Assembly (NCBI RefSeq): GCF_025742995.1
Contig: NZ_JAOVQM010000001.1
Location: forward strand, 310,001-374,000
Length of the DNA: 64,000 bases
Reading direction: 5' to 3'
Source: Paracholeplasma manati
GTDB taxonomy: Bacteria > Bacillota_I > Bacilli_A > Acholeplasmatales > UBA5453
How positions within the stretch are numbered: position 1 is the stretch's first letter; each line of letters opens with the position of its first letter. Below are positions 4,452 to 55,602 of the stretch, piece by piece. The position numbers and the translations under genes were made by a program. The notes under the pieces were generated by a model. It saw only the letters and a list, made by a program, of their open reading frames with translations, had not been told where the DNA came from and searched no databases.

Positions 4452-7400
4452 ATGAAGGCATTTTTACAGTATTTTAAAAACTTAATTCCCAATAAGGAAA
4501 TCATTCAAACCCAAAAGGATTTGGTGATCAATCAAACCAATGATCATTATAATATGACACTCATTGCGTGTGACTTCATCGAGAACAATCACTCGATTTT
4601 TGTCGTGCTACCCAACCTCTATATGGCACAACAATACTACGACGGCTTATCTAATCTCCTAACAAATGACGATGTGTTGTTCTACCCATCGGATGAAGTG
4701 TTGACCTCACTCCTCGCGCTCACCTCAATTGAATTCAAAATTGAACGTATCTACACCATAGGTACTTTATTGAAAGGTGTGAAGAAAGTAGTCATCACAC
4801 ACCAAACCGCGGTCATCAAAAAACAACGCAGTCCTTTACACTGGGAAGAAGCGTCGATGACACTCCACGTTGGAGACGCCATCAATCAAACGGTCTTTGT
4901 CAATTATTTGGTTGACCACGGGTATAAACGAGAATACACTGTATTAAAAACCGGTGAGTTCGCGGTTCGAGGAGACATCATCGATATATTCCCAATTGGT
5001 AGTGAAACCCCATACCGTTTAGACATCGGATTTGATGAAATTGAAAAAATCAAACTCTTTAGACCCGATACCCAAATCTCATTTGGACAAACCGAATCCA
5101 TTTCTATCTTACCGATGAACGAACTCTTTTTCAGTGACGCTGAAAAAGAAGGCGTCGTCGATCGTATGGAAGCTTTTATGGCGAAACACAAATTATCGGA
5201 TTTAGAATCAAAGAAGTTTAATCAAGATTTGGATAAACTTTATCAACGTATGGATTTGGATGCGTTAACGTATTTCATGCCATTCTTTAAAGATGCCGAT
5301 TATACGGTACTCGATTTCGCCCATAAAAAGAAAATCTATATTGTTGACAAACATAAGATGGCGAAAAACGATGACCGTATGTTACTAGACTTAGAAGAAT
5401 ATGTAAAAACCTATCATGGACGAACCTTTTTGAATATTCCATTTTATCAGTCTTTATCGCACATCTATGAATACCCACACGTTGAAATCAGTGGCTTTAC
5501 CCCTATCAATGCAGGTCACGCCATTACCGTGCATGCGAGAGATGAAATCGTCTATCAAGGCAATCACGACGCTTTTATTGACAGAGTTATAAAGGAACAA
5601 GATACTTATGTGGTTTCGATTGTTCAAGAGTTTAGATTACACAAACTAGAAGAACTATTGGAATCTAAGAATATTACTTATGTGGTTAATCCAACCAACA
5701 TCGAACCTAAATGTGTGAATATTCTTTACGGTTCATCTTTATACGCTTTTGATTTAATCAAACACGGCTTTCATGTTTTAAACGAATCCGATATTTTTGA
5801 TTATAAAAACAACAAACGTAAAATCCGCTACAAATCGGTCATGTCAGAAGCGATTAAAATCTCTGACATCACGGATTTAAAAGTGGGAGATTTTGTCGTT
5901 CACTATGATTACGGGATTGGACAATACTTAGGCTTAAAATCCATGGAATTATCTGGATCGATGCGTGACTATTTGCACATCGCTTACCAAGGTACGGATT
6001 ACTTATATATTCCGGTAGACCAAATTGAGAAAGTCTTAAAGTATTCATCCAAAGATGGTCATGAACCGAAACTCACCCAATTGGGTACGAACTCATGGGC
6101 CAATACCAAAAAGAAAGTCAAAGCGAAACTCAACGATATATCCGATAAACTCATCGCCTTATATTCAGAACGCGAACAAGCCAAAGGTTACATGTTTGAT
6201 CCAGACAATGAGATGCAAAAACAATTTGAAGCGTCCTTTGAATTTGACGAAACCATCGACCAATTGAAATCCATCGCTTCAGTCAAACAAGACATGGAAT
6301 CTCAAAAACCGATGGATAGATTACTCATTGGAGATGTCGGTTATGGCAAAACCGAAGTCGCGATGCGTGCTGCGTTTAAAGCGGTCATGTCAGATAAGCA
6401 AGTCGCTTATTTGGTGCCGACAACCGTTCTCGCAAGACAACACTATTACGCGTTTAAAAAGCGTTTTGAACCGTTTGGCGTGACGGTTGAATTGTTATCC
6501 AGATTCGTCTCTAATAAAGAACAAACCGATGTCTTAAAACGCCTTAAGGGTGGTTTCGTAGATGTCGTCATTGGGACACACCGATTATTATCCAAAGACA
6601 TTGGATTTAAAGACTTAGGTTTACTGATTATCGATGAAGAACAACGCTTTGGTGTTGAACACAAAGAACGCATCAAAGAGATGCGCGTCAATGTCGATTG
6701 CTTGTCTTTATCGGCGACCCCAATTCCAAGAACCCTTCAAATGGCTCTAATGGGCATCAAAGACTTATCGATGATTGAAACACCGCCCCTCAATCGGTAT
6801 CCAATACAAACCTACATTGTAGAACGCCATGACGCGATCATCAAAGAAGCGATTGAACGTGAAATCTCGCGTGCGGGACAAGTGTTCTATTTATATAATC
6901 GTGTACTAGATATGGAACTCATGGTCACGAAAATCTCGAAACTCGTTCCGGAAGCGAAAGTATGTTTCGCTCACGGAAAGATGTCTAAAGAACAAATTGA
7001 AGATGTTTTATCTGATTTTATCGACCGTAAATACGATGTCTTGATCTCTACGACCATCATTGAAACAGGTATTGATATTCCAAATACCAATACCTTACTC
7101 ATTCACGATGCAGATCAACTGGGGCTATCACAACTCTATCAAATCCGAGGCCGTGTTGGCCGTAGCGATAAAATCGCTTATGCGTATTTGATGTATGCGC
7201 GTGGAAAACACATGACCGAAGACGCGGAAAAAAGACTTAAAACCATCCAAGACTTTACAGAACTGGGCAGTGGTTTTAAAATTGCGATGCGAGACTTATC
7301 GATCCGTGGTGCCGGAGACATTTTAGGCGGTGAGCAGAGTGGTTTCATCGATACAGTCGGGATGGATATGTATTTGAAACTCTTAGAAGAAACCATCGAT

Positions 7401-7886
7401 GAAAAGCGAGGTATTAAAAAAGAAGAACCGAAAGAAGCGATGGATATCCCACTATCCAATCGTCATATTCAAAACGAATACATTGAAAACGATGAAGTTA
7501 GGGTTGCGATCCACAAACGTATCGCGGAACTCAATACACTCAATGACGTTGAAAACCTTCGTATTGAATTATCAGACCGTTTCGGGTCTGTCGATCCTAA
7601 TTTGGTTGAATACATGTTGGAAAAGGTATTCAAGAAGTTGATTGCGAAACTGGGGGTTGAGAAGACCATTAAGACCAAGACCGATGTGACATTGATCTTG
7701 TCCTCTGAAGCATCTAAACGCGTCAATGGACAATCGTTATTCATGTCAACATCATTGGTAGATTCTACCATTAAGCTCGCATTCATTCATGATCGTATAC
7801 AAATCACACTCATCATTCAAAACAAACAAAAGCACTACTTGGAAGAGTTCATCGAATACTTATCGATGGTAACCAAGCACATGTGA
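4452..7886 (+). CDS. mfd: Transcription-repair coupling factor
   Basis: Mfd displaces RNA polymerase stalled at lesions and recruits UvrA. The 1144-aa product has full family length (E. coli 1148). Visible parts in order: UvrB-like N-terminal region; CarD-like RNA polymerase interaction domain around 477 (VGDFVVHYDYGIGQYLG); Walker A at about 626 (IGDVGYGKTE); the DEEQ box at about 725 (IIDEEQRFG); the helicase motif SATPIPRTLQMAL; motif VI QIRGRVGRS; and a C-terminal TRCF domain. The start follows a GAGGTGA ribosome-binding site. A terminator follows at 7898. Confidence 0.97.
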   Translation: MKAFLQYFKNLIPNKEIIQTQKDLVINQTNDHYNMTLIACDFIENNHSIFVVLPNLYMAQQYYDGLSNLLTNDDVLFYPSDEVLTSLLALTSIEFKIERIYTIGTLLKGVKKVVITHQTAVIKKQRSPLHWEEASMTLHVGDAINQTVFVNYLVDHGYKREYTVLKTGEFAVRGDIIDIFPIGSETPYRLDIGFDEIEKIKLFRPDTQISFGQTESISILPMNELFFSDAEKEGVVDRMEAFMAKHKLSDLESKKFNQDLDKLYQRMDLDALTYFMPFFKDADYTVLDFAHKKKIYIVDKHKMAKNDDRMLLDLEEYVKTYHGRTFLNIPFYQSLSHIYEYPHVEISGFTPINAGHAITVHARDEIVYQGNHDAFIDRVIKEQDTYVVSIVQEFRLHKLEELLESKNITYVVNPTNIEPKCVNILYGSSLYAFDLIKHGFHVLNESDIFDYKNNKRKIRYKSVMSEAIKISDITDLKVGDFVVHYDYGIGQYLGLKSMELSGSMRDYLHIAYQGTDYLYIPVDQIEKVLKYSSKDGHEPKLTQLGTNSWANTKKKVKAKLNDISDKLIALYSEREQAKGYMFDPDNEMQKQFEASFEFDETIDQLKSIASVKQDMESQKPMDRLLIGDVGYGKTEVAMRAAFKAVMSDKQVAYLVPTTVLARQHYYAFKKRFEPFGVTVELLSRFVSNKEQTDVLKRLKGGFVDVVIGTHRLLSKDIGFKDLGLLIIDEEQRFGVEHKERIKEMRVNVDCLSLSATPIPRTLQMALMGIKDLSMIETPPLNRYPIQTYIVERHDAIIKEAIEREISRAGQVFYLYNRVLDMELMVTKISKLVPEAKVCFAHGKMSKEQIEDVLSDFIDRKYDVLISTTIIETGIDIPNTNTLLIHDADQLGLSQLYQIRGRVGRSDKIAYAYLMYARGKHMTEDAEKRLKTIQDFTELGSGFKIAMRDLSIRGAGDILGGEQSGFIDTVGMDMYLKLLEETIDEKRGIKKEEPKEAMDIPLSNRHIQNEYIENDEVRVAIHKRIAELNTLNDVENLRIELSDRFGSVDPNLVEYMLEKVFKKLIAKLGVEKTIKTKTDVTLILSSEASKRVNGQSLFMSTSLVDSTIKLAFIHDRIQITLIIQNKQKHYLEEFIEYLSMVTKHM

Positions 7887-27676: not shown

Positions 27677-28627
27677 ATGAACGAACATTTTCTCGAACCA
27701 TTGATTAAACAATACCTCTCTGAAAAGGACATCACACAAGGCACCTATAACCTGTTTAAAATCATTCTCGACCAATATATCTCCTATTTAAAAACACATC
27801 AAATAGACTTTCCAACGACAATAGATGTCATCGCGTTCCTAGAATGGAAGAAAAGTGATGGTTGTTCCATTCGATGGACCAACCATCAAATTGGGACCTT
27901 AAAAAACTTTTACAGGTATTTATGTTTGAATCTACAGCGCTTAAGTTTACCTGAAGTGTATGCGTTTGATATCATGCAGACAATCCAGAGGGAAATATTA
28001 GATCATAATGAATTTAAACCCACCTTATCTACAGAACAAGCCAAACAGCTGTTATTGTATTGTAAGGAACGTAGACATACTCGCTCACAATACCGTGATT
28101 ACGCCATTGTTTATCTAATGCTCACCACAGGCGTTAGAAGTATTGAGATAAGACGAGCGAAGCGAAAAGATTTAAAGCGGGTTAAACGACAGCTGGTCTT
28201 GTATATCCAAGGGAAAGGTAAAACCGCTTCGGATACGTATGTGAAGATTCCTGAAGGGTTAGAACAGGCGATCAACGATTATTTGAGTTTAAGGAAAGAC
28301 AATAATCCTTTTTTATTCATTGGTCATTCTAGACACCAAACAACGCCTTACTTATCGCGATCTTTCGTGATTAAGATGTTTAAACAACTGATGAAAGACG
28401 CTGGGCTTGAAGAAACCCAAGTGACTGCTCATGGGTTAAGACACACGGCTGCGACCATGAATTTACAGAGGGGTGGTTCATTAGAATCGACCAGGCAACT
28501 CTTACGTCACGCAACTGTAACAACAACCATGATTTATGCCCATCATGTGGGTCAGATGAAGGATGAACCAGAAAATGAAATCGAACGTTTGATTTTAGAC
28601 TTTCATGAGATTAAAACGGAGACATGA
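27677..28627 (+). CDS. Tyrosine recombinase (XerC/XerD-like integrase)
   Basis: 316 aa with an N-terminal SAM-like core-binding domain (about 5-95) and a C-terminal catalytic domain. Catalytic residues are visible: Arg I at R154 in LTTGVRSIEIRRA, the lysine in the following beta hairpin (QGKGKTASD), HGLRH box, RHATVTTT and nucleophile Y287 in IYAHH. It should cut and rejoin DNA at paired inverted sites. The ATG overlaps nothing upstream and follows GGGTGGGATG. Its TGA overlaps the ATG of a second recombinase, so the two are coupled. Codon use resembles the core genes rather than the adjoining island. Confidence 0.92.
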   Translation: MNEHFLEPLIKQYLSEKDITQGTYNLFKIILDQYISYLKTHQIDFPTTIDVIAFLEWKKSDGCSIRWTNHQIGTLKNFYRYLCLNLQRLSLPEVYAFDIMQTIQREILDHNEFKPTLSTEQAKQLLLYCKERRHTRSQYRDYAIVYLMLTTGVRSIEIRRAKRKDLKRVKRQLVLYIQGKGKTASDTYVKIPEGLEQAINDYLSLRKDNNPFLFIGHSRHQTTPYLSRSFVIKMFKQLMKDAGLEETQVTAHGLRHTAATMNLQRGGSLESTRQLLRHATVTTTMIYAHHVGQMKDEPENEIERLILDFHEIKTET

Positions 28628-46740: not shown

Positions 46741-48033
46741 ATGTTATTCAATATTGCACAAAAAGTTAAACTAGAGAACGGCGAATTTGCGATCATCAAA
46801 AAGTTTTTAGGTGAAGGTGGACAAGGCGAAGTGTATTTGGTTTCACAGGGTAGTAGAGATTATGCTTTAAAATGGTACAAAATGTTGCCAAGTGAAAGCT
46901 TTATTAACAACCTTAGAAACAACATTCATTTAGGTCAACCGAGTAATGATTTTTTATGGCCACTTAGATTAACAGAAAAGAGCAATCAAGGTGTTGGATA
47001 TTTGATGGATTTAAGGCCATCGATTTTTAAAGACTTTATCGCATTTTTAAATGCCAAAGTGAAGTTCTCATCACACAGTGCATTAGTAACCTACTGTTTG
47101 AATCTAACCAATGCTTTTAAACAACTACATCAACGTGGGTATAGCTATCAAGATTTAAATGACGGCTCATTCTTTTTCAATCCCGACAATGGTGATGCAC
47201 TAATATGTGATAATGACAATGTCGCGAAGTATGGAACGAACCTTGGTATCATGGGAAAGATGAAATACATGGCTCCTGAAGTTGTGGTAAAAAAGAACTT
47301 GCCAGATACACATACTGACCGATTCAGTTTGGCAGTTATCTTATTCATGACTTTGACCTATGGACATCCATTCCAAGGAGAACTGTTAAGAAATTATCCA
47401 ATGATTGATGAAGCAGCAGAATATGAACTATATGGCGCTTCACCGATATTCGTTTTTGATCCTAACAACACCAGTAACAGGCCAATTCGTGGCTATCATA
47501 ATGCTGTATTGAAACTATGGCCAGAATTGCCAAACTATGTCAAACAAGAATTCATTAAGACGTTTACTGAAGGTTTGTTGGATAGAGAAAACGGAAGAAC
47601 AACCGAACTCAAATGGGTTAAGACATTTCAAAAATATAGAGATGAAATCGTCAAATGTCCAAAATGTAATTTTGAATATCCTGCTCAAACTTATCCAAAA
47701 TCAACTTGTCCAAAATGCAAACTAAATCATGAAATATTGGGCAAATTAACAATTAATAACCACTTAATTTACTTAGATTCAAACAAAGAAATCTACCAAA
47801 CACATATAGACAAAACATCCAGCGAATATGGAAAAGTTGTAGGTCGAGTAGTTGAAAACAAGAATAATCCAAACCTCAAAGGCTTTAAAAATCAATCTGA
47901 TCGAGAATGGAAAATTACAGATATTAATGGTATGAGTAAAATAATACCGCCAGAAGGTGTTTTCAGACTCGATATCAAACAACTTACAATAGATTTTGGC
48001 GAAGGCATTACAGGAGAATTTCAAAGTATATAG
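46741..48033 (+). CDS. TerY-P triad protein kinase with zinc ribbon
   Basis: 430 aa. Serine/threonine-kinase fold: glycine loop GEGGQG (24-29), K44 in YALKWY, catalytic D138 in YSYQDLNDGSFFF, and metal-site D157 in ICDNDN in place of DFG. A zinc ribbon (CPKCNFEYP, then CPKCKLN, about 303-330) and a beta-rich C-terminal module (VVGRVVENKNNPNL, DFGEGITGEF) follow. This layout is that of kinases in TerY-P triads, described in tellurite-resistance-type stress modules, and the VWA and PP2C partners follow directly. The usual Asn five residues after the catalytic Asp is Ser143, so activity may be reduced. Confidence 0.88.
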   Translation: MLFNIAQKVKLENGEFAIIKKFLGEGGQGEVYLVSQGSRDYALKWYKMLPSESFINNLRNNIHLGQPSNDFLWPLRLTEKSNQGVGYLMDLRPSIFKDFIAFLNAKVKFSSHSALVTYCLNLTNAFKQLHQRGYSYQDLNDGSFFFNPDNGDALICDNDNVAKYGTNLGIMGKMKYMAPEVVVKKNLPDTHTDRFSLAVILFMTLTYGHPFQGELLRNYPMIDEAAEYELYGASPIFVFDPNNTSNRPIRGYHNAVLKLWPELPNYVKQEFIKTFTEGLLDRENGRTTELKWVKTFQKYRDEIVKCPKCNFEYPAQTYPKSTCPKCKLNHEILGKLTINNHLIYLDSNKEIYQTHIDKTSSEYGKVVGRVVENKNNPNLKGFKNQSDREWKITDINGMSKIIPPEGVFRLDIKQLTIDFGEGITGEFQSI

Positions 48034-48045
48034 GGAGGGTAACAC

Positions 48046-48786
48046 ATGAACGGGAACAGCAGTAATTACGATTTTGTAGAAGGTATTGCTAAACAAGTAT
48101 TAAATTTATTTTTCATCATCGATTCATCTGGATCGATGAGCGGAGAGCGAATTGGGGCAGTTAATAATGCCATCCGTGATGTGATGGATATCATGCCTGA
48201 AATTCAAGAAGAAACAGCAGATGTTGAAATTAAGATATCTGCATTAAAGTTTTCAGATAAAGCCTCATGGATTTATCCTGAAGCCAAATCTGTGGAAGAA
48301 TTTAAATGGAAAGACATCAATGCAGATGGTGTTACCAATTTAACTGATGCATATCAGGAACTTGAGAAACAACTAACCAAGGAATCCAACGGTGGTATGA
48401 TGCCCGATTTTGGTGGTTATGCACCGATCATGATTTTAATGACTGATGGATTACCAACATCTCCAGATTGGCCAACTGCGCTAGAAAGTTTAAAAAAACG
48501 TGGATGGTTTAGAGTTGCTTTAAGATATGCGTTAGCTATTGATATCGATTCTGATGAAGCAAGAGACGTGCTTATTGCATTTACAGGTAATTCAGAAACC
48601 CTATTAAAAGTACATTCAGCAGAATCGCTAAGAAAAGTTATCAAGCTCATTGCAGTCACTGCATCTAAAGTTAAGAGTCAATCATCAACCACTTTAAATA
48701 ACCAAGCTGGTGCTCAAAACCAAGCAGCAACGAAACAAATCAATGATTCTTTAGCAGACATTGATGACGTAGACGGTTGGAATTAA
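48046..48786 (+). CDS. TerY-like von Willebrand factor A domain protein
   Basis: 246 aa, essentially one VWA domain. The metal-ion-dependent adhesion site is complete: DSSGSM (D26, S28, S30), the threonine in GVTNLTDAY, and the aspartate in LMTDGLPT. The TerY type lacks a signal peptide and acts in the cytoplasm as a metal-dependent binding partner. It sits between the kinase (12 bases upstream) and the phosphatase (2 bases downstream), the standard triad order. A low-complexity tail rich in Gln/Asn/Ala (about 215-235) precedes the end. Confidence 0.92.
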   Translation: MNGNSSNYDFVEGIAKQVLNLFFIIDSSGSMSGERIGAVNNAIRDVMDIMPEIQEETADVEIKISALKFSDKASWIYPEAKSVEEFKWKDINADGVTNLTDAYQELEKQLTKESNGGMMPDFGGYAPIMILMTDGLPTSPDWPTALESLKKRGWFRVALRYALAIDIDSDEARDVLIAFTGNSETLLKVHSAESLRKVIKLIAVTASKVKSQSSTTLNNQAGAQNQAATKQINDSLADIDDVDGWN

Positions 48787-48788
48787 CA

Positions 48789-49871
48789 ATGAGCTTTGAA
48801 GTTCATCACTACAAATCAATTGGAAAAAAACACGCGCTTGAAGGAAGTGTTTGTCAAGACGCGGTTGACTCCTACCAAGATGAACATATCGCCATTACGG
48901 CAGTAGCGGATGGCCATGGCAGTAGCCAATATTTTAGAAGTCATCTAGGTAGTCAATTTGCAGTCGAGGGTACTATTGAATTATTAAAAACTTTTTATCA
49001 GGTACATCCAAATTATTTAGATGCTCAAAAGCATTTAGAAAATCTTAAGTTGCAAATCCTAGTAGAATGGAACAACCGAGTAGAAATGGATTACAAACAA
49101 AACCCCATTAAATGCGAGGAATTACACCATTTGAGTGAAAAACAACAACAAAGAATCAATGATAATTACTTTACCGCATATGGCACCACATTGTTAGCAT
49201 CTTTATGGTGTAAACAATATTTATTGGTCTTTAGAATTGGCGATGGGATAATTGCCAAAATGGATCCATCACTTGAGGTGAAACAACTTTTAGTTGATCA
49301 AGAGGAACAAGGGGGCAGTTTAACGGATTCTATGTGTCAAGAAGATGCTTACACAAGAATGCAAGTTGAAATTGTCGACAATCCAAATACGACAGCGCTC
49401 GCAATATGCAGTGATGGAGTGATCAATGGATTTGGCAATTTATACAAGTTCAACACATACCTTTTTAAACCGTTATTGATTGAAAGATTTAGATATGACC
49501 AAGCCAGTATGGCTAATATATTAAACCAAGCAGTCACACAAATAGCGGGGGCATTCTCATCCAGCGATGACTCTAGTCTTGCCATAAGTTATGTGGTACC
49601 AACCACATCACCCAGCTTAGATTTTTATGATTGCGAAAAAATGAGAACTTTATTAGAATTGGACAATCTAGATCAAGTTGATATCGATAATCAGCTGAAA
49701 TTATACAAGACCATCGATAATGATGCTTTGTTAACATTTACTGCTTTTATTCATAATCAAGAACTGCTGAATCCAACAGAACGACAACTACGTTTATATC
49801 AAACATTAGTAACCTCACATCAACCTTTAGAAGCCTTAGTAAAATTCACGGATCAAGTTATCAAAGAATAA
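48789..49871 (+). CDS. PP2C-type protein phosphatase of the TerY-P triad
   Basis: 360 aa from the ATG at 48789; a TTG at 48777 would overlap the VWA gene and lacks a better site. PP2C metal ligands and motifs: CQDAVD (D24), VADGHGSS (D41), GTTLLASLW, FRIGDGIIA, ICSDGVINGF and SSDDSSLAI. It would remove phosphate from targets of the kinase encoded two genes upstream. The last 90 residues are helical and specific to this protein. Confidence 0.92.
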   Translation: MSFEVHHYKSIGKKHALEGSVCQDAVDSYQDEHIAITAVADGHGSSQYFRSHLGSQFAVEGTIELLKTFYQVHPNYLDAQKHLENLKLQILVEWNNRVEMDYKQNPIKCEELHHLSEKQQQRINDNYFTAYGTTLLASLWCKQYLLVFRIGDGIIAKMDPSLEVKQLLVDQEEQGGSLTDSMCQEDAYTRMQVEIVDNPNTTALAICSDGVINGFGNLYKFNTYLFKPLLIERFRYDQASMANILNQAVTQIAGAFSSSDDSSLAISYVVPTTSPSLDFYDCEKMRTLLELDNLDQVDIDNQLKLYKTIDNDALLTFTAFIHNQELLNPTERQLRLYQTLVTSHQPLEALVKFTDQVIKE

Positions 49872-49880
49872 AGGTGCTGT

Positions 49881-51500
49881 ATGATATTACACGAAGCATT
49901 AAGAAAAATTAAAACTGACTATTTAAAGGATTCAAAAATTACCAATTTTGAGTTGGTTCATTCTTATCTTTTAGATTTGTGCTCATCGACTGAAGATGAA
50001 AAACGCTCGGTGAGAAAATTCAAACTATTTATGAATGATATCAATGTATTCTCTTATTTAGTCAATAGTGATAACGCCGATGATGCAATTTCAAAGGCGG
50101 TTTTTGCTTTTGAAAATCACGGTATAGATGCAGATAATTACAAATGGGTAATTGCGCAATGTGTATATGCATTTAAAGTGACGGTCAGTTTAGATTTAGG
50201 TAAATACAAAATACCATTACGAAAATCAAGTACAAACGGGTCAACGCAGCCTAAAACAACCAATAGTGTGAGTTCGATCGGTAAGACATCTACAGCAAGC
50301 AAAACATCGACTTCCGCTACACCCAAAACATTCACACAACCAACAGTATCAAAACCAAGCACATCACAACAATCTGCACCGCTGAAACCAGTAGTTAGTA
50401 AATCGGTATCACAGTCGTCAACAACATCAACGCCAGCATCACACACACCTGTTACGAACACACCAACAACACCTACATCAAGTTATTCAAATTCCTCGTA
50501 TTCCTCTAGCTCGTATTCGACAAGAAATTACTATTCTTCAAGTCGTCTAGACTTATTCTTCACACGTCACTGGGCAATTTCACTACTCTTTTGGTTAGTT
50601 TTATTAGGCATTAGCCTCTATTTTTTCCCGGGGCATAGTAAACTTATTTCAATACTTTCATTGATAGTTGGTATCATCGGTATCGTGGACATGAGTTTTT
50701 CATTATACAAACATATCGATGATGATGATATGTTTATTCTTGTACTCATATTACCACTATTCATAGCAGTTAATGCAGTCGTATTATTCTTTTTACCACA
50801 CTCATATTATTATATTCTTGGCGGTCTATATATTCTTATCCTTCTTTCAGGTGCATTATTAGTATTGTTTTATTGGATGAGTGATGAATTTGATAGTGCG
50901 TATATTAGTACATTTCTAATTATCATTTTAATTTATATGCCACTCACTTATTTTATTTTCAATATATGGTTAGAATGGCATGATCTTTTTGGACTTTCAC
51001 TCGTATTTGGTACATTATTACTAGCTATTAACTTGTACTTTTTAAGAAAAAATTACTATAGTTCGAAAGGCTTTACAGACATTATCTACACATTAACATT
51101 ACCAATAATCAGTTCATTGGCTTTCTTCTATTTAATTGATAACCATATCAATGGCTTGTTTGGAGAACTTATTTTCCTTTACATACTCTATTTCGTTGTC
51201 TATTCAGTATTCCATACACTGATAAGTTTTTTTAGTAAGGATGGTCCTGTTCGTCAAAATATTTTAACCATTTCAATGATTGTTTTCACCTCATATGCGG
51301 TGGGTTATTTATATCTACTTGAAGTATTCGAACCTAGACATGTCGCGATTGTCGGGCTATATGGGGGACTACACTTCATATTCCATGCAGCGATTCATAA
51401 CGATGAAATGAATGATGGGACGGCGACATTCCATTTTCTCACATCTATTTTGCTGATAGTAGGCAGTATTGTATTATTTATTTTTCCAAACATTATCTAA
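49881..51500 (+). CDS. Polytopic membrane protein with shared N-terminal domain and Ser/Thr-rich linker
   Basis: 539 aa. Residues 1-110 form a helical domain shared with the next gene (VRKFKLFMNDINVF; SKAVFAF; WVIAQCVYAF). Residues about 115-225 are a Ser/Thr/Pro/Gln-rich linker. From about 230 there are some ten transmembrane segments to the end. The linker is a plausible phosphorylation target of the adjacent kinase (inference). The N-terminal domain resembles helical modules found in bacterial kinase/Hsp70-linked proteins (pattern D-LC-x-R-x-n-L-x-GV...W-V), recalled, not searched. AAGGTG precedes the ATG, 9 bases after the phosphatase. Confidence 0.7.
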   Translation: MILHEALRKIKTDYLKDSKITNFELVHSYLLDLCSSTEDEKRSVRKFKLFMNDINVFSYLVNSDNADDAISKAVFAFENHGIDADNYKWVIAQCVYAFKVTVSLDLGKYKIPLRKSSTNGSTQPKTTNSVSSIGKTSTASKTSTSATPKTFTQPTVSKPSTSQQSAPLKPVVSKSVSQSSTTSTPASHTPVTNTPTTPTSSYSNSSYSSSSYSTRNYYSSSRLDLFFTRHWAISLLFWLVLLGISLYFFPGHSKLISILSLIVGIIGIVDMSFSLYKHIDDDDMFILVLILPLFIAVNAVVLFFLPHSYYYILGGLYILILLSGALLVLFYWMSDEFDSAYISTFLIIILIYMPLTYFIFNIWLEWHDLFGLSLVFGTLLLAINLYFLRKNYYSSKGFTDIIYTLTLPIISSLAFFYLIDNHINGLFGELIFLYILYFVVYSVFHTLISFFSKDGPVRQNILTISMIVFTSYAVGYLYLLEVFEPRHVAIVGLYGGLHFIFHAAIHNDEMNDGTATFHFLTSILLIVGSIVLFIFPNII

Positions 51501-51522
51501 AAGAAAACATGCGGGGTAGATT

Positions 51523-52386
51523 ATGCTATTCAATGAAGCGCTTTTTCTCATCTTATCCAAATACTTGTCTAGTGAACAATTAATGAATTATAAGATTGTT
51601 CAAGCACATCTGATCGATTTATGTTCTGATTCACCTGAATCGCTAAAAATGGTCAGAAAGTTTTCAATTTATATGAACGATATCAATGTATTTAAATTCT
51701 TGCTAGATAAGTCTTCAAGTGATCCATTATCTAAAGCATTGTATGAATTTAATAGTTATGGTATCTCTGCCTCTGATGCTAGTTGGGTTATAAACCAATG
51801 TTTGATGGCTTACAATAAATCCTATAAGACATCCATACCACTGTTGGATATGAAACAGCAAATAGGATCAACCAATACAGATAAAATGAATAAACCAAAT
51901 TCTAATAAAAGAATAACGAAACCAAATGAATTAAACGTGAAATCAACTACTAACAACACAAATGAATTATCACAATTAGTAAGATTACCACAAGTCATGT
52001 TGAGGTTTGATTTGCCTAATAGCTATCAAATTACAGAACATTATTCAAGTAGTTTTGGTGCGAATAGAGGAAGTCACAGAATATATATAGCTATCGGAGA
52101 AAAATCACCCTATAAAGAAAAATTCAAAATAACAAATTTGGAGCATTTCGCCTATTTTATTCTAGATTTTTTAAGCGCTAAGGGGATGCTTTTCAAAGCA
52201 AAAATAGGAGAATTCGAAGGATTTGAAGCAGATTGTGATACCAATACACCAGAAGAACAAAAGAGGTTTGCATTCTTTGAAACAAATAATCACTACATCG
52301 CGATATCTTTTACTACGTTAAAACCCATGAAGAAGTCACAAATTAATGAATTTGAAAGTATAATAAATACGATAAGGGCATATTAA
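51523..52386 (+). CDS. Soluble protein with the shared N-terminal domain
   Basis: 287 aa. Residues 1-110 match the previous protein (VRKFSIYMNDINVF; SKALYEF; WVINQCLMAY). A short Asn/Lys/Thr-rich linker leads to a C-terminal alpha/beta domain (about 155-287; YQITEHYSSSFGANRGSHR, YIAISFTTLKPM) that I do not recognise. No membrane segment. The shared domain suggests that both proteins are recruited by the same partner, perhaps the kinase or VWA protein. It starts 22 bases after the membrane protein gene. Confidence 0.65.
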   Translation: MLFNEALFLILSKYLSSEQLMNYKIVQAHLIDLCSDSPESLKMVRKFSIYMNDINVFKFLLDKSSSDPLSKALYEFNSYGISASDASWVINQCLMAYNKSYKTSIPLLDMKQQIGSTNTDKMNKPNSNKRITKPNELNVKSTTNNTNELSQLVRLPQVMLRFDLPNSYQITEHYSSSFGANRGSHRIYIAIGEKSPYKEKFKITNLEHFAYFILDFLSAKGMLFKAKIGEFEGFEADCDTNTPEEQKRFAFFETNNHYIAISFTTLKPMKKSQINEFESIINTIRAY

Positions 52387-52407
52387 ATTCCTATAGGAGG
52401 AGAAAAA

Positions 52408-53181
52408 ATGAGAAAAGTATTAACATTGGTATTAAGCGTCATTATGGTTTTATCATTGGTTGCTTGTGAGAAAAGTAAACCATCGAAAAATCAATTTGGT
52501 TATTTTTCTGTAAATGGGAAAACATTAATCTCCCTAGCCGAAAATGAATTGTCTTATGAAAGTGCAAAGGCCTTTGTCACTAGAATTAGTTCTGCTGACA
52601 ATGAACAAAAATTATTATCAGCAAGTAGAGATACGACATTATCGACTGATGAAATTAATCGTATTCTTAGTACATTCGGGGGACTTGAAATCGATTATAT
52701 GTATTATGATTTGAGCGGAGATGAAAAGAGTGGTAGTTTTAAATTAGAAGGATCTGACTTAGCTAACCATGTTACGAACGGAAGCATACCATTATTCTAT
52801 GGGATACTTATTACTGATATTGTTATTAATCTAGAAGTATTAGAATATTATCAAGAACAAAACACACTATTTAAGACATTACCTAATTACAATGTTTTTC
52901 CATTTTCGAATATTTACACCTACCACCAAACATTTGATGGGAAGTCATTTGTTTTACAAGTTCACGATTTTACAGAACTACCAAATAGTATCGGATATGC
53001 ATCTGGTTTCTCATCAACCTATCTTAAAGAAAATGAAGTTGTTTATGATGGTGAATCTCGTCTAATCACAACCTATCAAACTGCACAAGGAATAAAAATA
53101 CAGTATCCTGATGGAACTGGATTTTATGGCGCACTTTTTAGAGCGGATTTTAACTGGATTCCTAAGACTAACAATAACTAA
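52408..53181 (+). CDS. Lipoprotein of unknown function
   Basis: 257 aa. The N-terminus is a classic lipoprotein signal: basic start, hydrophobic core and lipobox LVAC with C20, followed by a charged segment. The mature part has no recognised domain. AGGAGGAG precedes the ATG. As last gene of the triad operon it gives the module an extracellular component that could report surface stress to the kinase; that role is speculative. Confidence 0.75.
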   Translation: MRKVLTLVLSVIMVLSLVACEKSKPSKNQFGYFSVNGKTLISLAENELSYESAKAFVTRISSADNEQKLLSASRDTTLSTDEINRILSTFGGLEIDYMYYDLSGDEKSGSFKLEGSDLANHVTNGSIPLFYGILITDIVINLEVLEYYQEQNTLFKTLPNYNVFPFSNIYTYHQTFDGKSFVLQVHDFTELPNSIGYASGFSSTYLKENEVVYDGESRLITTYQTAQGIKIQYPDGTGFYGALFRADFNWIPKTNNN

Positions 53182-53304: not shown

Positions 53305-53883
53305 TTACAGTTCAATAACCTGTCTTTTACAACCAGTATAGTCAATAATTTGGTAGAATAATTTATTAGGTTTTCTTTGGATATATCTGGTGAGGGTTCT
53401 ATAAACCTCAAGCATCATATCTAGTGGATTCGAGGTGGAAGAAAACTTTTGGTTAATTTGAGCAGTGAATAGATCCTTATACTCTCCAATAGTAAAAAAT
53501 GAATCAATTTTGTTGATGACGTAAAATGAATCCATGATATATATATCTTGTTCATGAATGAATAAATAAGACCCATATAATCGTTTTGGTGGTTTTTGAG
53601 TGTATTCCGAGAAGTTGGTTAAATGCTGACGAATCTGTGGTGTAAATATATCTTTTATCCATTTAGAAGAAAATGATTGTGGGTCGAATTGAATGTATTT
53701 TATAACTTCAGAATTTCTACCAGAATCAGTGGTTATTACATAGGTGTTATTCATTGATGGAATTTGCCAAAACGGATGATTTTCAACATTTTGCATGTCA
53801 TCATCGTGATAACCGATTAACCCGATATTTTCACTGTCATAAAATAAATGGATTTGAGTATCTTTTTTAATTACTGTAATCAT
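53305..53883 (-). CDS. Degenerate Ntn-hydrolase (proteasome-fold) paralogue
   Basis: 192 aa, last gene of four overlapping minus-strand genes. It aligns with the C-terminal half of its neighbours (YLFIHEQDIYIMDSFYVINK then FFTIGEYKDLFTAQI, equivalent to IIIAKRDKLFRIYDSGAVVE then FVAIGSGQSYALAFY in the first gene). The N-terminus MITVIKKDTQIHLFYDSENI keeps the two-strand pattern but no nucleophile/Asp17 pair and no GSG. Probably a structural subunit. Overlaps the upstream gene by 4 bases (ATGA). Homology to the Ntn fold is inferred through the first gene of the cluster. Confidence 0.55.
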   Translation of the reverse strand: MITVIKKDTQIHLFYDSENIGLIGYHDDDMQNVENHPFWQIPSMNNTYVITTDSGRNSEVIKYIQFDPQSFSSKWIKDIFTPQIRQHLTNFSEYTQKPPKRLYGSYLFIHEQDIYIMDSFYVINKIDSFFTIGEYKDLFTAQINQKFSSTSNPLDMMLEVYRTLTRYIQRKPNKLFYQIIDYTGCKRQVIEL

Positions 53884-54455
53884 AATGGATTTACCTCATT
53901 AAAATGATAGGTATGATCTGATGTGTTGTAAACCACATATCGAGTTGAATAGTTACTATATGAGTGGGATACTTTTTTCATCAAATCATGAATAAAGTCA
54001 TGAATATTGAGGTCATCAGTGAAGGTCATTAAATTACTAAACAAAACTTGTTCCTCTTGACCAAATGCAGCGTAATGATCTACTTCAACAACGAAAAGAG
54101 ATCGCAAAAGCTGATAAATCTTGTTTTTATATACAATAATATGTCGAAACGCTTTTTGTGAATTTTCTTCTTTAATTAAACCCAAATCACAAGCGCGTTT
54201 GAACCAAGGGTTTACAATTTGATTCACAATGATACCTTTGTTGGATAAATCATTTTGAGGTAATTTGAACCACTGTGGGTTATCACTTAATATGTAGTCT
54301 ACGGGATTGGGTTCGTACGATCCCACGACAAAATTATCGTTTTTAAAAACGACTCCGAAATCTTTTGGTGTCAAGTGCGCTTGTTTCAATTCAGGGTTTA
54401 AGTTACCAACCAAATAAACAATCCCACAATGTTTAATAGCAAAATTTATACTCAT
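53880..54455 (-). CDS. Degenerate Ntn-hydrolase (proteasome-fold) paralogue
   Basis: 191 aa. The start MSINFAIKHCGIVYLVGN parallels MSLVIAIKHGEIVYFGAD of the first gene, including the Ser after Met, but the Asp at the 17th position of the mature chain is Asn (LVGN). Later blocks are similar in position (FRHIIVYKNKIYQLLR; VVEVDHYAAFGQEE). The catalytic lysine cannot be located. Likely inactive or altered. GGAGG lies ahead of the start, within the upstream gene; overlaps of 4 bases on both sides. Confidence 0.6.
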   Translation of the reverse strand: MSINFAIKHCGIVYLVGNLNPELKQAHLTPKDFGVVFKNDNFVVGSYEPNPVDYILSDNPQWFKLPQNDLSNKGIIVNQIVNPWFKRACDLGLIKEENSQKAFRHIIVYKNKIYQLLRSLFVVEVDHYAAFGQEEQVLFSNLMTFTDDLNIHDFIHDLMKKVSHSYSNYSTRYVVYNTSDHTYHFNEVNPL

Positions 54456-55015
54456 AGGTCCTCCATTGAATGGATGTATCTTATACGTTCTGTTTTAGTA
54501 TCAAGAATCGCAATTGGAAACGGATTTTTGAAATTATCCTCACAGTCTGCTTTTATACTTAATACCAATCGTGTAATTGGGTCGTTATCTTTATGTGCTA
54601 GCAGTGTAGCAGTTAACAAAGAACTTCCAAACTGGTTATCATAACTGAGTATTTTAATAGTCTCATCTGTATCGACGAAATAGGCATCATCATTTTTAGC
54701 AATATATATGCCACAGTTCATGTTACCCTCTTCGTTTAATCGCCCCATCGATTTTAAAAGAAAGTTGTATTTTGGGATAATAGTTTCTACTAAATTAGAA
54801 TAGGTGAGTGTTATATGAATGGGTTCATATCTAAGTATGTCTGCGTCTCTCAAACTAGGAAAAACGGCCATAATGGTATTTTTTGACCCTTTGACCTTCC
54901 AAAAAGGAATGTTTTCTTCAATCAAAAAGGCATCTATATCGTAACAATACAACGATATAGAACTTACGGATGTTGCAAAGTAGGTTGTTCCTTTTTCACG
55001 TAACATTATAAACAT
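54452..55015 (-). CDS. Degenerate Ntn-hydrolase (proteasome-fold) paralogue
   Basis: 187 aa. Pattern of strands as in the first gene (MFIMLREKGTTYFATSVSS; NTIMAVFPSLRDADI; NCGIYIAKNDDAYFVDTDE; AILDTKTERI). The start has no Ser/Thr/Cys immediately after Met, and no Asp17 or GSG equivalent is visible, so no peptidase activity is expected. AAAAGGA lies 10 bases before the start; an internal ATG at 55006 is less well placed. It overlaps the first gene by 10 bases. Confidence 0.55.
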   Translation of the reverse strand: MFIMLREKGTTYFATSVSSISLYCYDIDAFLIEENIPFWKVKGSKNTIMAVFPSLRDADILRYEPIHITLTYSNLVETIIPKYNFLLKSMGRLNEEGNMNCGIYIAKNDDAYFVDTDETIKILSYDNQFGSSLLTATLLAHKDNDPITRLVLSIKADCEDNFKNPFPIAILDTKTERIRYIHSMEDL

Positions 55016-55602
55016 AGTTGAGAATTCCTTTTCTCTATTTTTAAAGTATCTGTATCCATGAGTGTGACTTGCCCACCGACGGAGTTAACATATTCATCTG
55101 TAAAGGCGATTGCATTTACAATAAATTGATTCACATCTTTAATGGGTTTATGGATTCTGTAAAATGCGAGTGCATAAGATTGACCACTGCCAATGGCCAC
55201 AAATTCAGGTATCTCAACGACTGCACCTGAATCATATATCCTAAACAACTTATCTCGTTTTGCAATAATTATTGACATCGATAGAGTTTTAGCACCATTA
55301 GAAGTAGTCGTTAATTGATCATAGGATTTCAACTCTTTAAAAAGTTTTGGCAACACTTCTGTGACTAAATATTTCTTGCTCAACGGTTGGTTTTCTAAAC
55401 CGTCAAACCACTCAGGATGAAAAGTTATTTGCTGAATTGAACTCACATAACCACTAAGCCCAACTACAATACCGTGTCCTAAAGAAATGATTTTATATTC
55501 TTCTTCAAAGCTACTAAAGATTTTTCCATCGCCAATAGTTGTTTGTGTATCAGCTCCGAAATACACTATTTCACCATGTTTAATTGCAATAACTAAACTC
55601 AT
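55006..55602 (-). CDS. Proteasome/HslV-like Ntn-hydrolase with Ser1 nucleophile
   Basis: 198 aa, promoter-proximal gene of the four. Sequence MSLVIAIKHGEIVYFGADTQ has the proteasome-beta/HslV/Anbu pattern: after Met removal Ser1, then Asp17 in GAD, Lys36 in EEYKIISLG (Lys33 in proteasomes), GLSG at the usual strand after it, and FVAIGSGQSYALAFY, equivalent to the AIGSG helix-start of the family. The nucleophile would be Ser rather than Thr. No ATPase partner (HslU, Mpa) is in the window. GGGGG lies before the ATG. The nearby kinase/phosphatase operon is convergent. Confidence 0.8.
   Translation of the reverse strand: MSLVIAIKHGEIVYFGADTQTTIGDGKIFSSFEEEYKIISLGHGIVVGLSGYVSSIQQITFHPEWFDGLENQPLSKKYLVTEVLPKLFKELKSYDQLTTTSNGAKTLSMSIIIAKRDKLFRIYDSGAVVEIPEFVAIGSGQSYALAFYRIHKPIKDVNQFIVNAIAFTDEYVNSVGGQVTLMDTDTLKIEKRNSQLCL

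Follow-up and report, generated by a model that had tools for sequence, protein, structure and literature searches.

Four genes, A-D, form an array on the minus strand of the window, the 64-kb stretch of Paracholeplasma manati DNA analysed here, at positions 53305-55602. Gene A (55006-55602, 198 aa) encodes a proteasome-like Ntn hydrolase with a complete Ser1/Asp17/Lys33 set, and genes B (54452-55015, 187 aa), C (53880-54455, 191 aa) and D (53305-53883, 192 aa) encode predicted proteasome-fold paralogues. Neighbouring genes overlap by 10 bp (A/B), 4 bp (B/C) and 4 bp (C/D), and the reading frames of B, C and D are all intact and of full length. Purine-rich, Shine-Dalgarno-like stretches lie upstream of the starts, most clearly those of C (GGAGG) and A (GGGGG). 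An ORF check reproduced the coordinates, overlaps and motifs given in a preliminary description of the array; the lengths of 187-192 aa reported there hold for B-D, but A has 198 aa, so that the range becomes 187-198 aa. The gene overlaps also fit co-translation, in keeping with the suggestion made there that the four proteins are made together.

Active-site columns were read from an alignment of 30 family members. The catalytic set, Thr1 or Ser1 with Asp17 and Lys33, is found in A only, in agreement with the initial view that a single gene of the four is apparently catalytic. A has S1, D17 and K33 (Lys36 in its own numbering), as well as GLSG and GSG. B, which starts with MF, has nothing at position 1 and carries D17S and K33P, and thus retains none of the set; C retains S1 only, with D17N (GAD to VGN) and K33G; D, which starts with MI, has nothing at position 1, retains only D17 and carries K33P. 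Single-copy relatives have Ser1 or Thr1, Asp17 and Lys33, the exception being L026, in which the ORF starts too late to include position 1. Methionine aminopeptidase prefers small second residues. B (Met-Phe) and D (Met-Ile) would retain the methionine and would therefore be without a nucleophile at position 1, and A and C (Met-Ser) would expose Ser1 after its removal. The branches of B, C and D are long in the family tree; loss of function would also give such branches.

A matches the Pfam Proteasome family PF00227 above the cut-off (2.5e-8) and is the only protein encoded in the whole genome to do so; a failure to align with proteasome-beta/HslV/Anbu profiles, which would have spoken against the initial reading, was not seen. 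Its best match in a single-sequence PDB search is BPH (5ovu, 1.1e-6); a profile of relatives in place of the single sequence also brings up HslV and the alpha and beta subunits of the proteasome. On the NCBIfam HslV equivalog, whose cut-off is 157.75 bits, A scores 24.2 and so is not classed as HslV. Single-sequence searches of genome contigs and plasmids found no close relatives of A, and the relatives came by profile; a search of IMG/VR viral contigs with the family alignment yielded none. Rfam and tRNA scans of the 64-kb window gave no matches.

B-D have no convincing match of their own in Pfam, NCBIfam or PADLOC. They are nevertheless recovered by the relatives' profile, which was built from 11 relatives, collected in other genomes of this order and class, with A-D left out, and whose matches weaken from A (1.4e-33) through B (2.4e-13) and C (2e-8) to D (2.4e-4). 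Direct matches in one-sequence databases connect A with C (1e-8), B with D (5e-7) and A with B (2.5e-4). The structure of D, the member with the weakest profile match, was modelled from an alignment of 20 sequences (pLDDT 87, pTM 0.83), and in the PDB the model resembles proteasome subunits and BPH (best Foldseek 1.2e-7; Z 17.1 over 174 residues); the alignment could have helped to pull the model towards the proteasome fold, but the model is confident along nearly the whole chain. D also gave matches to NusG and LoaP (0.008 and 0.007), a reading that was rejected because the model of D has a proteasome fold. A proteasome (Ntn) fold is thus predicted for D from its modelled structure and for A, B and C from their sequences, and all four are almost certainly homologous members of one proteasome-like family. 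The description of four proteasome-fold genes is upheld by the matches of B-D to the relatives' profile and by the model of D, and the contrary outcome named beforehand, that the folds of B-D would prove unrelated to Ntn hydrolases, did not materialize.

Relatives of the family are mostly single, intact genes, and the Ntn family as a whole is found in 12 of the 160 genomes of the order. Two adjacent Ntn genes, one complete and the other with K33R, are present in G061 (locus L058), and four adjacent Ntn genes are found in G317 (L027:7601-10005), which belongs to another family of the class. The multi-gene layout is therefore not a one-off. The active member is the first in the window array (A, Ser1) and the last in the G317 array (Thr1). 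Two non-Thr1 members of the latter match the relatives' profile (2.1e-7 and 1.1e-4), to which the Thr1 member of this array had contributed; the remaining member does not match it (1.4), and its model is a proteasome subunit (pLDDT 88, Foldseek 8.1e-7). Mutual best matches pair A with 9418, B with 8849, C with 8230 and D with 7601 of G317, all except that of A at just 5-8 bits, and an AU test rejected neither gene-by-gene pairing between the two arrays nor common origin within each of them. The array is absent from the six congeneric genomes searched, three of which are incomplete, and the same-species genome G004 (82% complete) is without it. On conservation of the four-gene order in related genomes, proposed as a check at the outset, the comparison thus yields a second array and a pair, mostly single relatives and no array in the congeners. 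Single Ntn relatives, 24-31% identical, also occur in 22 phage records, e.g. Geobacillus virus E3 (H2) and Psychrobacter phage D'Alembert (H1), and several of these already carry an HslV-family or proteasome-like annotation.

Particles that mix active with inactive paralogues are best known from the 20S proteasome. Like it, the array combines active and inactive homologous members, and D aligns with both alpha and beta subunits over its full length. By contrast, B-D open directly with the first strand and have neither the N-terminal helix of alpha subunits nor a propeptide of the beta type. BPH (5ovs, 5ovu) and HslV share with the family a Ser or Thr nucleophile, and form homo-oligomeric double rings (PMC8665760, PMC5777263); they differ in that one gene supplies the particle and every subunit is active, and A falls far below the HslV cut-off. 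Five clusters, FC1-FC5, are known among the proteasome homologues of Bacillota (Fuchs, Alva and Lupas 2021, PMC8665760). They resemble A in the proteasome fold, Thr1/Ser1, Asp17 and Lys33, the lack of a propeptide, the occurrence in Bacillota and the accessory distribution, and they probably include A and its single relatives. FC1-FC5 are, however, described as single genes, with no degenerate multi-gene array reported, and a four-gene, mostly inactive array was not found described in the openly accessible literature. Since FC1-FC5 homologues in Bacillota are known, what is new is confined to the mostly inactive, multi-gene array and the genes around it.

The array is convergent with a plus-strand TerY-P operon whose triad lies 3.4 kb away, a cassette that the preliminary description had missed. 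This operon encodes a TerY-P-type Ser/Thr protein kinase (46741-48033; PF00069, 1.5e-13), a TerY-like vWA protein (48046-48786; PF00092, 3.7e-10) and a PP2C protein phosphatase (48777-49871; PF13672, 5.5e-34), orthologues of which lie beside Ntn genes in six other loci. The TerY-P triad consists of a vWA protein, a PP2C and a Ser/Thr kinase with a zinc ribbon (PMC11090510). The window kinase ends in a zinc-ribbon-like CxxC...CxxC tail, a putative zinc ribbon judging from its sequence, in which C306, C309, C323 and C326 are invariant in seven orthologues, and the three genes (46741-49871) are adjacent or overlapping on one strand. The locus resembles the antiphage TerY-P of Gao et al. 2020 and the CoCoNuT-linked TerY-P (PMC11090510, PMC7699616) in its three proteins, its single operon and its CxxC...CxxC kinase. 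A TerY-P system has been reported to be active against T7-like phages (PMC7699616) and elsewhere goes with CDC48/SpoVK-like AAA+ and restriction genes (PMC11090510, PMC7699616). The window kinase is 48-50% identical to triad kinases elsewhere, and the vWA protein shares 58-64% identity with the first of the vWA proteins in other triads; a plasmid kinase from a gene row annotated as TerY-C, kinase, VWA and PP2C is 39.5% identical to the window kinase. In PADLOC the kinase matches PD-T4-6 and other kinases, and the vWA and PP2C proteins match nothing.

Three further plus-strand genes (49881-53181) fill the interval between the triad and the array. A probable membrane protein of the TerY-P operon, with a hydrophobic C-terminal half (49881-51500), starts 10 bp past the PP2C gene and has its N-terminal ~110 aa, a domain without Pfam match, in common with the next protein (51523-52386), which has no significant Pfam match of its own. 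The third gene (52408-53181) encodes a probable lipoprotein with a lipobox-like LVAC, and its homologues directly follow PP2C in the Ntn/TerY-P loci L034 and L038 (phmmer 4.6e-25 and 2.7e-13). The domain shared by 49881-51500 and 51523-52386 bears a weak likeness to post-PP2C proteins of other loci (hhalign probability 7%), and no relationship is claimed.

Clustering of neighbouring genes revealed a single Ntn gene beside a kinase, two vWA proteins and PP2C in L022, L032, L034, L038 and L039. In the window these families are represented by a kinase, a single vWA protein and PP2C, and L058 has the full set near its Ntn pair. Of the 23 non-redundant Ntn loci, 7 have the triad nearby, the window included; the other 16, the G317 array among them, are without it. 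Triad and Ntn genes share a strand in six loci, and in five of these they lie within about 550 bp. In the census of the order, a close kinase (>700 bits) occurs in 3 of the 160 genomes, all three of which carry the Ntn family at the same place. The probability of this overlap by chance, if the two were independent, is ~3e-4 (220/669,920), a figure that is indicative only, as Ntn loci, these sequences among them, went into building the kinase model. Samples of 296 and 392 genomes contained no further close kinases, and no Ntn gene was present in the stretches read around distant kinases of ~300 bits (G019, G036, G156, G178). Taken together, the Ntn/TerY-P association very probably exceeds chance. 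No published link between TerY-P and proteasome-like proteins was found in the openly accessible literature. Several small genes round the triad are possible further components (L034:5757-6188, L038:3411-3878, L022:13690-14583 and L032:9638-10450); the one in L034 matches DUF4097 (toastrack), and the other three appear beta-rich by eye. At L072:1108-12086 and L073:1240-11100 the TerY-P-like set is doubled and comes with an AAA+ gene, and no Ntn gene could be detected.

A CDC48-like AAA+ gene lies near Ntn genes in three loci: between the kinase and vWA genes in L058 and, as a related gene, two genes from the Ntn gene in L017 and L020. The L020 protein matches the NCBI models CDC48, PAN and CdvC below their cut-offs; a search of the window genome with it returned one match, a 657-aa frame that is probably FtsH, and no dedicated AAA+ gene was found in that genome. 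A C-terminal HbYX motif was not seen in the four AAA+ neighbours read, of which the L020 protein runs to the contig end. Adjoining the CDC48/PAN/CdvC-class AAA+ gene (CdvC 1e-54; N-terminus MIT-like by eye) are genes for charged coiled-coil proteins of ~190-213 aa, ESCRT-III/Snf7-like by eye, at L017:836-1456 (-), L020:2917-3558 (+), L072:6056-7231 and L073:5917-7071. The coils of L017 and L020 have no Pfam or PDB match, and the coiled-coil genes of L072 and L073 adjoin TerY-P genes.

The array lies in a stretch of low GC content (22-56 kb; 0.27-0.38, mostly ~0.31, versus 0.36-0.43 in most of the window outside) that holds an integrase at 27677. Comparison of the flanks with congeners gave no clear boundaries for an island. 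A Band 7 protein and surface-sugar genes are also encoded in this AT-rich stretch (22000-56000). The surroundings of the G317 array include AbiEii, DdmD-like and type IV restriction genes; within L027:274-13061 the array sits between a DdmD-like/DdmE-like pair (3.4e-32 and 8.7e-4) and the type IV restriction gene, with AbiEii nearby. Other relatives are found on resolvase-bearing elements, near a conjugation gene, in phages and on Bacillus plasmids. Given this patchy presence and the mobile settings (islands, elements, phages and plasmids), the Ntn family is accessory. In L018 a single Ntn gene is followed, one gene further on, by a gene that is ClpP-like by reading (7038-7589), with a TraG/TraD-type conjugation gene close by.

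These observations suggest the following model. A-D, which have diverged as paralogues of one proteasome-like hydrolase that has no propeptide, would be made together and may form one mixed oligomer, an assembly to which we give an even chance. Removal of methionine would bare Ser1 of A and create the hydrolytic sites, and B, C and D could have a part in structure, docking or gating, much like the inactive subunits of the 20S proteasome. Under stress or phage attack the kinase and phosphatase may turn the particle or its substrates on or off, the vWA protein being their adaptor, and the particle would be the effector of the TerY-P cassette on an accessory island. As no dedicated AAA+ gene was found, unfolding would be either unneeded or left to a housekeeping ATPase; a fuller form may be seen in the G061 locus, with its CDC48-like AAA+ gene and Ntn pair. 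As a whole, the reading of A-D as a co-translated mixed oligomer that supplies proteolysis to a TerY-P cassette on an accessory island seems to us about evenly poised between right and wrong. It is weakened by the opposite strands of array and triad in the window, by the 16 Ntn loci that have no triad, by the long branches of B-D and by the missing array in the same-species genome G004. More tentative, and somewhat doubtful, is the step to a bacterial particle of mixed subunits, with one catalytic and three inactive types, that evolved independently of the 20S proteasome and acts as a phosphorylation-gated TerY-P effector; a role of the locus in defence, suggested by its context, is possible at a similar level.

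Single-copy relatives evidently function by themselves, and A might likewise work alone, as a homo-oligomer or monomer, with B-D being decaying, roleless duplicates on a mobile island. The missing catalytic residues and long branches of B-D agree with such decay, as does the absence of the array from six congeneric genomes. Decay, however, accords poorly with the intact, full-length frames of B-D, their tight overlaps and ribosome-binding-like sites, or with the confidently predicted full fold that D keeps; moreover, the G317 array, in another family, also keeps three degenerate members. We consider this explanation unlikely. A proteasome-like protein need not self-assemble or be a protease, as illustrated by connectase, a monomeric ligase (PMC8665760), and the products of the array could instead be a specific peptidase, a ligase or a peptide-binding scaffold, in which B-D would be recognition or sensor subunits, possibly without any ring. 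Such a role would suit C, which has Ser1 without Asp17 and Lys33, and a genome in which no unfoldase partner was found apart from the FtsH-like match, but A has Ser1, Asp17 and Lys33 and its best match is the ring-forming BPH; this explanation, too, we consider unlikely.

The link between array and cassette could also be accidental, the two being independent cargo of a mobile island. Relatives do occur on resolvase-bearing elements and near a conjugation gene, and those on phages and Bacillus plasmids are without the triad; in the window itself, array and TerY-P operon converge within a low-GC stretch of 22-56 kb that carries an integrase. Nevertheless, in six other loci Ntn genes and triad lie on the same strand, in five of them within about 550 bp, and every one of the three genomes of the order with a close kinase has the Ntn family. 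A chance neighbourhood is in our view improbable.

If the reading of A-D as a mixed oligomer tied to TerY-P is correct, it would add a second mixture of active and inactive paralogues to the 20S proteasome, and in a small bacterial genome. The one-, two- and four-gene stages found in related bacteria would then allow a direct test of how hetero-oligomeric proteases evolve. The survey that defined the Bacillota clusters found 22 new homologues with no informative context and no AAA+ interactor (PMC8665760), and the TerY-P link offers a concrete lead on the function of proteasome-like proteins in Bacillota.
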